Source: an uncultured Candidatus Saccharibacteria bacterium
GTDB lineage: Bacteria > Patescibacteriota > Saccharimonadia > Saccharimonadales > Saccharimonadaceae
Direction of reading: 5' to 3'
Assembly (NCBI GenBank): GCA_947307225.1
Contig: CAMZIL010000006.1
Coordinates: forward strand, 1 to 46,333
Length of the DNA stretch: 46,333 nucleotides
A program made the position numbers and the translations under genes. Below are positions 27,881 through 30,884 of the stretch, in pieces (within the stretch, counting starts at the first letter, position 1; every line of letters starts with the position of its first letter). The notes under the pieces were generated by a model, which saw nothing but the letters and a program-made list of their open reading frames with translations, searched no databases and was not told the origin of the DNA.

Positions 27881-28876
27881 TTAATGAGGTGGCGGATAGA
27901 ACATGGAATTATTGCCAAGATGTGTCCAGAGGCTCGACGTGATAGCCTTTAGAAAATAGCGTTCAAACTCGCGTTGGTTGGTGATATCTGACTTTTTCTT
28001 GCACTGGCGTTCGACGACTTCAGGTGTAATTGGGTCGGAAACGATAAGTTTGTACTCCTTGAACAGATTCAGCCGTTTTGACGCCTTCTTGGGCGGTATG
28101 ACGGCAATCGGAACAAAGAAGCTGTCGATCAATCGTTTTGAGCGCAGTAGGCTCATTGCGATAAGGGTCATCGTTTGCGGTTCAACCTTCTCCGCGCCCA
28201 AATATGCTTCGAAACTGCGGAAGACTGTTGCCTGACGTGTCGCACTGGGTGCAATGAGGACAATATCGTCGCTTACCATGAAATCTGAGCAACATGCGAG
28301 ATAGTAATCGTTAAACTGACGCGCGAGCTTGTCGACATATTCTTCGGCGACTGGATCTGTGATAAATTCCGACATTCTTTCGCGAGCGTATGGCGGGATA
28401 GTCGGCACTATATAGATACCGAACTCTTCCAGACGGCTCGCATATGGAGCTAACGTCTCATACCAAGCAAGGTTTACTGGAAATAAGCATTTCCGTTCAG
28501 GATACTCGGTTACGCAAATTGCGACCAGGCGGAGAATTTCTCCTAAAGTCGGATGATTAAAACCAAAGATCATTCCATGATGAAGTTGCGGAAGATAGCC
28601 ATAAACCTTCGCCGGGGCTCCCCAGTTCAGGATACCGCCAAGCGAGGCACGGAGAGCAAGTTCACGAGACTTATGTCTGCGATTGCGAAATAGTGCGAAG
28701 AACCTGGCGAACCGAATTACGGTTCGGCAAGCCCAGCCCATCTTTTTCATTTCCTTGCGGATTTCATGGCAGCCAATCGTATCAAGAACGGAGTATCTTC
28801 CGGCGCGCAAGTGGTCGATTACGGTTCTAAAGTCGTATTCGGCCAAAACACCGATTGAAGTTCCTTTTAATTTCAA
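27881..28876 (-). CDS. Putative acyltransferase-like protein
   Basis: A 331-aa soluble or peripheral protein. GFNHPTLGEIL near residues 105-115 gives an H-x4-E pattern like the H-x4-D box of glycerolipid acyltransferases (PlsC-type), and a later IVLIAPSATRQATVF near 204-218 could correspond to the substrate-binding block. A basic region RFARFFALFRNRRHKSRE near 55-72 may bind phospholipid. The family call is tentative, since the second acyltransferase box is not clear. It starts at MKLKGT with GAAAGGGG upstream, is transcribed from TATAAT at 28940-28935, and is a single-gene unit divergent from tRNA-Gln. Confidence 0.5.
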   Translation of the reverse strand: MKLKGTSIGVLAEYDFRTVIDHLRAGRYSVLDTIGCHEIRKEMKKMGWACRTVIRFARFFALFRNRRHKSRELALRASLGGILNWGAPAKVYGYLPQLHHGMIFGFNHPTLGEILRLVAICVTEYPERKCLFPVNLAWYETLAPYASRLEEFGIYIVPTIPPYARERMSEFITDPVAEEYVDKLARQFNDYYLACCSDFMVSDDIVLIAPSATRQATVFRSFEAYLGAEKVEPQTMTLIAMSLLRSKRLIDSFFVPIAVIPPKKASKRLNLFKEYKLIVSDPITPEVVERQCKKKSDITNQREFERYFLKAITSSLWTHLGNNSMFYPPPH

Positions 28877-29072: not shown

Positions 29073-29101
29073 AAATATGCCCCGAAGGGCAATATTTTTT
29101 T
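29073..29101. terminator. Terminator after tRNA-Gln, shared with the 29114 gene
   Basis: GCCC/GGGC core with CGAA loop, extended by ATAT pairs, A-run on the left and T-run on the right. Confidence 0.85.
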
Positions 29102-29113
29102 GTCTGAAATGTC

Positions 29114-29647
29114 TTAGATGATCGAGATAGTATACAACTCGCCCTTCAGGAGCTTGATACTGACATGAAAAATCTTGTCTGCTTTATCGGTCTTGAAAGT
29201 GAAAGTAATCTTGTCTTTCTCGTCAGAAATTTTTGCGCCAGCGACATCGTAGTATACGTCGTCATACGAAGACGAAACATAGTACTTACTCAGGGCCTGA
29301 ATCACGTGAGTATTCACGGATTCGATGTCGACATCGGTAAGACCGTATTTCCTCAGGAAGTTAAGTGATTGGTTTTCTGCTAAATCGGCGGATTCGCCAC
29401 CGGTATCTTCGTCTCCACTGTCGTATTCAAGCTTTGACTCGGAAACAGGGGCACTGTTCGTGTCGATGACCTTGTTCTCAGTATTAGACATTACGAGCAA
29501 TACAATCGCGATGATTGCGATAAAGAGGAGAACTGCAACCATGACTATAATAAAAATCTTGTGGCCGCGATTCTTCGGTTTTTCTGGGGCTGCATAACCG
29601 GCCGGAACATTGCCGACTGGGCTGATAAAAGTGTTGTTGTTATCCAT
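29114..29647 (-). CDS. Single-pass anchored protein, partner of the pilin-peptidase gene
   Basis: A 177-aa protein with a Pro/Asn-rich N-terminal cytoplasmic region (PVGNVPAGYAAPEKPK), one transmembrane helix at about 31-54, a Ser/Asp/Glu-rich linker and a small exported alpha/beta domain (RKYGLTDVDIES to the end). No family is recognised. The start at 29647 is set by a one-base TAATG overlap with the upstream pilin-peptidase gene, with GGGAGG inside that gene, so the two are co-translated. It is the last gene of the unit. Confidence 0.75.
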   Translation of the reverse strand: MDNNNTFISPVGNVPAGYAAPEKPKNRGHKIFIIVMVAVLLFIAIIAIVLLVMSNTENKVIDTNSAPVSESKLEYDSGDEDTGGESADLAENQSLNFLRKYGLTDVDIESVNTHVIQALSKYYVSSSYDDVYYDVAGAKISDEKDKITFTFKTDKADKIFHVSIKLLKGELYTISII

Positions 29648-30831
29648 TATTTCCATACCTCCCAATAACCAGTGGCATATGCTGTTGCCGTCGAGAACGA
29701 TACGCTGCTAAAGCTACTAGATGCAGGGTTTTGCACCGTAATAGTGTCTCCGCTGACTTTAGAGAACATGACAAAGTGGCCATTCTTGGAGAAAACCAAG
29801 TTAGTTTCATTGCTACCGCGGGCACCCACGGCGACAACTGCGTGACCAGCTTGAAGAGCACCTTTGATGCGACCGGAATTAATAGATTTAATATTCACAT
29901 GGTAGGCATCGGCGTAATGGTTAATAATATTGCTGCCGAGGTTGCCCCAATAGCTGTTGTCCGCGAAGAGACCTTTGCGAGAAGTAAAATTATTTGTGTA
30001 GGCCTTCATATGGTTTGCCATAATTTGAGGATTAAGCTGACAGCCTGTCACCTTGATAATGGCATTCAAGATGGCAATCATAGGGCAGCCAGATTTTTTG
30101 ACCGTACAGTTAGGGCAATCGCCACCTTTCCACTTAACGCTTGCATAATCGCCCCATTGCGTAAAGTATGAGCTGCCGGTTGGGACGCCGTAGGACGCAC
30201 AGGAATTGCTGCTCGGATTGATGGTGCCGTTTCCGCCAACGGCATTTGGATCCGGTTTTGAAGGGTTTGGTACGCCAGTACCAGGTGTAGTATTGGCGCC
30301 CGGGCCTGTATAGTTTGGTTTTGCCGCTGGAGTTACGGCGGTCTGGACCCAATCTACGCGTTTCGAAGTTGAACTAACAACGGTCGGAACCTTGTTGACT
30401 GCGCCGCCTGGCATAAAGAGATAAATCAGCGCATCCATGAGCGCGAAAACACCGATGCCGATCACGGTTTGCAATATGCGACCCTTGGCTTGAGAAACCT
30501 GAGCCTCGTTGTCCCTTGCAGACATATAAAGCATACCGGACCAGATAATACCGATCGTTCCCATTACTACGATGCCGGCAGTAAAGATAGTTACGGTCGT
30601 ATTAAGAACACTCACGGTGCCGCCACAGAAACAGCCATTTTTGTCGCCGAAAACGCCAGCGTCAGCGCCTTCTTCAACCTTTGTTGTCCCGTCCGAATAT
30701 TTATTTGTACATTGACAGACTGTCTGTCCGTTTGCTGCCGCAACAGGCAAGGTCGCGGCAAAAGTAGATAATAGTGCGCCTATGATTGCTAACGATACAA
30801 GAAGCACTTTTTGATGCTTATGTTTACTCAT
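29647..30831 (-). CDS. VirB2-like pilin fused to a C39-like cysteine peptidase
   Basis: A 394-aa exported protein with two modules. Residues 1-33 form a signal peptide (VSLAIIGALLSTFAATLPVAAA). A CQC/CFC cysteine pair and two membrane helices (about 74-102 and 119-140, with MLYMSARDNEAQVSQAKGR between) match the TrbC/VirB2-like pilins common in CPR genomes. A Pro/Thr/Gly/Asn linker (about 165-210) leads to a papain-fold C39-like domain: QWGDYASVKWKGGDC, then the SGCP nucleophile Cys249, His352 in NGHFVMF, and Asn368 in VQNPA. It may anchor a peptidase to a secretion pilus or to the membrane. The -10 lies 6 nt upstream of the ATG, so it is leaderless. Confidence 0.8.
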   Translation of the reverse strand: MSKHKHQKVLLVSLAIIGALLSTFAATLPVAAANGQTVCQCTNKYSDGTTKVEEGADAGVFGDKNGCFCGGTVSVLNTTVTIFTAGIVVMGTIGIIWSGMLYMSARDNEAQVSQAKGRILQTVIGIGVFALMDALIYLFMPGGAVNKVPTVVSSTSKRVDWVQTAVTPAAKPNYTGPGANTTPGTGVPNPSKPDPNAVGGNGTINPSSNSCASYGVPTGSSYFTQWGDYASVKWKGGDCPNCTVKKSGCPMIAILNAIIKVTGCQLNPQIMANHMKAYTNNFTSRKGLFADNSYWGNLGSNIINHYADAYHVNIKSINSGRIKGALQAGHAVVAVGARGSNETNLVFSKNGHFVMFSKVSGDTITVQNPASSSFSSVSFSTATAYATGYWEVWK

Positions 30832-30854: not shown

Positions 30855-30884
30855 GAAAAAAGTACGCCCAGACTAAGCTGGGCG
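30855..30884 (-). terminator. Terminator with the stop codon in its loop
   Basis: On the minus strand CGCCCAG/CTGGGCG with loop CTTAGT; the TAG of the 30873 gene lies in the loop. TACTTTTTTC follows. Confidence 0.88.

Follow-up and report, generated by a model that had tools for sequence, protein, structure and literature searches.

The present study suggests that, in an uncultured Candidatus Saccharibacteria bacterium, a pilin of the type IV secretion system (T4SS) carries an enzyme on its outer end. Specifically, the window analyzed here, the whole 46,333-nucleotide stretch of contig CAMZIL010000006.1 (assembly GCA_947307225.1), contains on its minus strand a gene that joins a T4SS pilin to a papain-fold, C39-like domain and overlaps a gene for a membrane-anchored protein, referred to below as the partner. 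The reading we favor, with a probability of roughly 0.55, is that the product is a specialized T4SS pilin that displays a surface- or wall-acting papain-fold enzyme and is accompanied by its cognate membrane-anchored partner. The fusion itself is confirmed and is not an assembly artefact, because five further genomes carry it. The two genes and the parts of the fusion protein are as follows:

29647 to 30831, minus strand: pilin–peptidase fusion gene, 394 amino acids (open reading frame, T4SS_pilin Pfam match, papain fold, orthologs)
30733 to 30831, minus strand: Sec-type signal peptide, residues 1 to about 33 (read from the sequence: KHKHQK, a hydrophobic core, and PVAAA|N)
30409 to 30621, minus strand: two-helix T4SS pilin domain, residues 71–141, with the positive loop ARDNEAQVSQAKGR (PF18895, AlphaFold2 helices, closest to the first array pilin)
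30190 to 30408, minus strand: flexible Pro/Thr/Gly linker, residues 142–214 (low pLDDT, little conserved in orthologs)
29650 to 30189, minus strand: papain/C39-like peptidase domain, residues 215–394, with C249, H352, and N368 (VIA-align, invariant triad)
29114 to 29647, minus strand: the partner, a single-pass membrane protein with a C-terminal alpha plus four-strand outer domain (TAATG overlap, ortholog conservation, AlphaFold2)

The fusion is read from 30831 down to 29647, and plus-strand reading is interrupted by internal stops. Its pilin part matches T4SS_pilin (PF18895) over residues 75–138 with an E-value of 7.8e-6 and 26.3 bits, 0.3 below the cut-off of 26.6, and one ortholog (L012) exceeds that cut-off at 30.6 bits. 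An AlphaFold2 (AF2) model made from six orthologs, with a mean pLDDT of 59, places pilin helices at residues 71–104 and 109–139 with low confidence; its C-terminal domain is modeled confidently, in blocks of about 55–91. The protein also contains a conserved Cys-rich stretch, VCQCTN.YSDGT...CFCGG. When the AF2 model was aligned with VIA-align, residues 218–394 superposed on papain-fold peptidases, with the best match to the pseudomurein endoisopeptidase PeiR (8z4h; Z 13.2, 138 residues, 2.7 Å), followed by a papain-like toxin/immunity pair entry (9l5u, Z 11.8); staphopain, the C39 domains of PCAT1 and ComA (about 11), and a contact-dependent inhibition (CDI) toxin (11.0) were also among the matches. 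Foldseek E-values for this domain were modest, about 1e-3. In the model, Cys249 opens the helix 249–262, His352 directly precedes the strand 353–360, and Asn368 directly follows the strand 363–367, a placement that matches papain and C39 enzymes, and all three residues, together with Gln225, are identical in six of six orthologs. Sequence profiles see less of this domain: in the window protein it has no Pfam match of its own, including to PF13529 (Peptidase_C39_2), whose cut-off is passed by a single ortholog (L016, E 1.3e-7, 32.7 bits); a profile search of PDB sequences gave no meaningful match, and the Pfam scan of the window protein gave no SLT match. With regard to function, wall or envelope chemistry, as by a wall peptidase or an amidase, appears no less likely than cleavage of surface proteins: PeiR, the highest-scoring structural match, is a pseudomurein endoisopeptidase, and the majority of the named cargo domains in the related fusions described below act on walls or glycans.

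An alignment-based search of genome contigs recovered five relatives at full length and one fragment at a contig edge, whereas a scan of genome contigs with the single sequence found no relatives, and phage records gave no match. The full architecture is kept in these five other genomes of the genus at 41–52% overall identity, such that the fusion is present in 6 of the 45 genus genomes; the named ortholog records belong to Candidatus Saccharibacteria and come from metagenomes, animal-associated ones among them. The peptidase is the best conserved large part (43–64% identity), followed by the pilin (35–58%), and the linker is the least conserved (19–36%). Thus far the original prediction, which had read this gene as a VirB2-like pilin joined to a papain-like peptidase with the plausible triad Cys249, His352, and Asn368 and had placed it in Saccharibacteria, is borne out: the PF18895 match, the predicted papain fold of region 215–394 (Z up to 13.2), the invariance of the putative triad, and the other genomes of the genus all agree with it. 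Two of the relatives call for comment. In one genome (G043; L014 and L083) the signal-peptide part and the pilin part lie in two overlapping open reading frames, reflecting a frame-shift or a sequencing error; the first-listed frame of L014 begins late, and its N-terminal part is in the overlapping frame. In addition, a 3-kb contig in a genome of another genus (G168, contig C3; L142) holds a peptidase end plus partner of a type almost identical to L015; it is possibly a stray, perhaps contaminating, copy close to L015, and we excluded it as a second genus.

The same genome encodes a T4SS. On contig C1, a locus encodes a TraG/VirB4 P-loop protein (E 7e-30) and a PrgI protein (E 1e-13), at least six tandem pilins, and a membrane protein that is called VirB6-like from its position and length and has no Pfam match; of the VirB4 and VirB6 genes that the original prediction had proposed to look for outside the window, a VirB4 gene and a VirB6-like gene thus exist on another contig. 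The fusion gene itself is on contig C6 and, because it lies outside the T4SS locus, is classed here as a pilin-derived fusion and not as a core T4SS pilin. Several observations relate the fusions to that locus. In blastp comparisons among pilin domains, the first array pilin was the best array match for 60 of 62 C-terminal cargo fusions and 30 of 30 N-terminally extended ones, in a collection that was gathered with the window protein as bait and so favors this class, other classes being possible; the remaining array positions matched their own kind. These comparisons support descent of the fusions found from the first-array-pilin (A1) class. The first array pilins within the T4SS locus themselves have N-terminal extensions, and PF18895 is matched at an E-value of 0.01 by 75 of 88 fusions. 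Over 101 fusions, the inter-helix loop carries a net charge of +2.5 and the flanks −2.3 and −1.5, and by the charge rule this pattern puts both protein ends outside the membrane, in keeping with the outward-facing enzyme first proposed.

The T4SS locus also contains, beside VirB4, a secreted enzyme (L009, 2491–5186) with a Phage_lysozyme2 domain and weak GDSL and NlpC/P60 matches, which is likely a VirB1 equivalent; its gene overlaps that of a PEGA-like single-pass membrane protein related to the PEGA-type partners of VanY pilins. The locus thus encodes an unfused enzyme of the same types together with a PEGA-type neighbor, which connects the T4SS with such wall enzymes and with partners of this sort. 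Separately, some pilin genes encode two, three, or four pilin domains per protein (L009, 15315–15971; L080, 1510–2412; L146, 1258–3185; L151, 1760–3010).

The window fusion had been treated as a single case, and in this respect the original prediction fell short: it is one instance of a wider pattern in which at least a dozen cargo families occur on the same pilin class. Our collection from the genus (45 genomes) and the family comprises 101 distinct pilins that bear long extensions; 63 of them have C-terminal cargo, of 180–570 residues, and 38 have an N-terminal extension only. A Pfam census of 88 fusions found VanY (11), Peptidase_C39_2 (5), NAGPA (4), Y_phosphatase3 (4), GDSL (3), alpha/beta hydrolases (3), NlpC/P60 (2), and Phage_lysozyme2 (1), along with Big_2 linker domains (5); one fusion has a weak metallo-beta-lactamase match below cut-off. 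Cargo families were clustered on masked sequences, and one cluster still merges CHAP-like, esterase, and NAGPA cargo via two-domain proteins. Cargo is found at either end of the pilin; the tyrosine-phosphatase domain, for example, is N-terminal in two proteins and C-terminal in two. The window genome itself provides two further fusions, in which a similar pilin half is followed by another C39-like domain (L011, 10815–12131) or by a VanY carboxypeptidase domain (L010, 2748–3983; E 5e-11); these paralogs share ~80% DNA identity across the pilin part, and their C-terminal domains are unrelated. A family of 27 N-terminal extensions, repeat-like, about 300–380 amino acids long, and with no Pfam match, precedes an A1-type pilin and often has a family-0 membrane partner upstream (e.g., L067, 880–2283; L058, 930–2297; L140, 1645–2841).

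Outside the family the examples are few and were chosen for length, and hence give no rate. Another family of the phylum has pilin fusions with SLT plus Amidase_2 and with SLT plus GDSL (L145, 829–2646 and 3925–6030), which join VirB1-type domains to a VirB2-type pilin. Pilin proteins of 3077, 1595, and at least 1053 amino acids (L144, 134–9364; L146, 4167–8951; L143, 3341–6499) bear, C-terminal to the pilin part, adhesin-like Ig, PKD, TIG, VWA, or laminin-G domains.

The stop codon of the fusion (29649–29647) and the start codon of the partner (29647–29645) share the TAATG overlap, with an internal GGAGG site upstream, and the partner adjoins the fusion in all orthologs, forming a conserved two-gene unit; the coupled, anchored partner originally noted is therefore a constant neighbor. 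Within the genus, a full-length partner of the window type occurs in exactly six genomes, those that carry the fusion. It has a short cytoplasmic N-terminus, one transmembrane helix, and an outer domain that AF2 models with pLDDT of about 87–95. A single-pass membrane neighbor accompanies 36 of 63 C-terminal cargo fusions versus 9 of 84 control genes (Fisher p 2e-9). Moreover, a partner family is shared in 0.51 of same-cargo pairs versus 0.04 of different-cargo pairs, a difference reached in 0 of 2000 permutations, although this test is inflated by related sequences and ignores common descent. The most probable role of the partner is to restrain or dock the enzyme, as an immunity protein, inhibitor, or assembly factor. 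Its topology, a single transmembrane helix plus an outer domain, fits VirB8, and VirB8-type chains appear only at Z 3.5–4 among many NTF2/cystatin-like rows; fold matches were nonetheless too weak to assign it to VirB8 or to the cystatins, the best being a PVC baseplate protein (Z 6.4) and the others 5.0 or lower. The alpha plus four-strand pattern suggested, by eye, that all partner families share an origin, but profile comparison did not support this, its sole weak link joining family 3 to family 5 (E 0.0023, probability 12.5%).

Collectively, these observations can be cast as a mechanism. The gene product would be a specialized subunit of the chromosomal Patescibacteria T4SS: an A1-type VirB2-like pilin, exported by Sec and seated in the membrane such that its two ends face outward, whose C-terminal end would bear a papain/C39-fold Cys–His–Asn enzyme on a flexible linker. 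The pilin part would anchor the enzyme at the T4SS pilus or at its base, where incorporation is probable, and the enzyme would act on peptidoglycan or surface proteins at host-cell contact or, alternatively, on the epibiont's own wall at the site of pilus passage. The partner, presumably from the same transcript, would face outside and restrain or dock the enzyme in a cargo-specific manner. More broadly, the variety of cargo makes it possible, though we hold this tentatively, that the Patescibacteria T4SS pilus is an interchangeable tool carrier, with cargo pilins that descended from the first array pilin, each with a cognate anchored partner, presenting wall hydrolases, other enzymes, and adhesins.

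Several points weigh against this account. The neighbors of the fusion gene are an ABC-F gene and a phosphorylase gene, on a contig other than the one with the T4SS locus, and the AF2 pilin part is of low confidence. As for the partner, the permutation test carries the inflation given above, about 27 of the 63 C-terminal cargo fusions have no detected partner (some of these loci are incomplete), and partner family 0 accompanies several cargoes.

Of the other explanations, the one that survives best, while still unlikely, is that the pair is a polymorphic toxin and its immunity protein, a pilus-delivered weapon against host or competing bacteria from which the partner protects the producer. The exchange of C39-like for VanY cargo on pilin halves of ~80% DNA identity, the tracking of cargo family by partner family, and the structural matches to papain-like toxin/immunity and CDI toxin entries would all be expected of such a system, and an outward, anchored partner would suit a wall or surface target. 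However, immunity genes are often solitary, whereas the 39 genus genomes without the fusion hold no full-length orphan copy of the window-type partner; one partner family can go with different cargo; a PEGA-type partner also stands beside the core T4SS wall enzyme; and quick killing of the host would be of little benefit to an obligate epibiont. Less probable again is a housekeeping role in which the fusion substitutes for VirB1 and cuts the producer's own peptidoglycan for pilus passage. Many cargoes are wall-lytic, pilin–SLT fusions are known in the phylum, and according to PMC12102498 the majority of Patescibacteria genomes that have VirB2 pilins lack VirB1. Yet a core wall enzyme is already present in the T4SS locus of the same genome, the window type is accessory because only 6 of 45 genus genomes have it, and NAGPA, tyrosine phosphatase, and esterase cargo do not fit this role. 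That the pilin part is a mere two-helix membrane anchor for an ectoenzyme that never enters a pilus is about as improbable and the least favored: many fusions do lie outside the T4SS locus, and C-terminal cargo of this length could be bulky on a polymer, but a conserved A1-type pilin core is more than a generic anchor would require, the same core accepts Y_phosphatase at either end, and the first array pilins of the T4SS locus are themselves N-terminally extended.

Two terminator-like stem-loops, both identified by consensus match only, flank the pair:

30865 to 30884, minus strand: stem-loop 5′ of the fusion gene, closing the preceding gene
29078 to 29091, minus strand: stem-loop with a T tract 3′ of the partner gene

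Beyond the latter, a 331-amino-acid protein with no Pfam match (27881–28876, minus strand) is syntenic near the fusion in four of the five relatives, at 35–41% identity.

The specialized, enzyme-bearing pilin that we favor resembles several known systems and differs from each. Like VirB2/TrbC-like Patescibacteria pilins (PF18895, PF04956), the fusion has a signal peptide, two hydrophobic helices, and a positive loop; unlike them, it bears a 180-residue folded enzyme and is encoded outside the T4SS locus. To our knowledge, known VirB2 pilins are small and without a catalytic domain. With the peptidase C39-like/papain superfamily (PF13529) it shares the predicted papain fold, Cys at a helix start, His before a strand, and a conserved Gln, but its third residue is Asn in place of the usual Asp, and it is joined to a pilin. 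VirB1 and other T4SS wall hydrolases are likewise envelope-acting enzymes linked to a T4SS; in VirB1, however, the lytic transglycosylase domain belongs to a protein of its own, whereas here a papain-fold enzyme is covalently attached to a pilin. Fused effectors of type VI secretion systems, like the cargo pilins, combine a conserved trafficking part with a variable C-terminal enzyme and a small cargo-matched neighbor. The same combination characterizes the polymorphic toxins treated in the searched text of PMC3482391, where pilins and type IV secretion are unmentioned; in the pilin fusions, too, differing C-terminal domains follow a shared N-terminal part. Patescibacteria T4SS pilin arrays are surveyed in PMC12102498. 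That paper, PMC12857230, PMC10633639, PMC12206443, PMC10768705, and PMC3482391 together concern polymorphic toxins as well as the pilin arrays of the Patescibacteria T4SS and the essentiality of these arrays; the passages of them searched do not mention enzyme-bearing pilins, with most subscription-journal papers and all preprints outside the search.

PMC10633639 reports that epibiotic growth requires the T4SS in the single Patescibacterium examined, and that the pilin array is essential in Southlakia epibionticum. Enzymes fused to pilins are concrete candidates for T4SS effectors, and also a candidate solution for wall penetration where VirB1 is reported missing (PMC12102498). The cargo pilins can be tested gene by gene in culturable, transformable Saccharibacteria. 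Our findings suggest that the pilus carries tools for working either a neighbor's surface or the cell's own wall, and, if the notion of an interchangeable tool carrier is true, it would represent a novel way of delivering effectors, covalently fused to a pilin.
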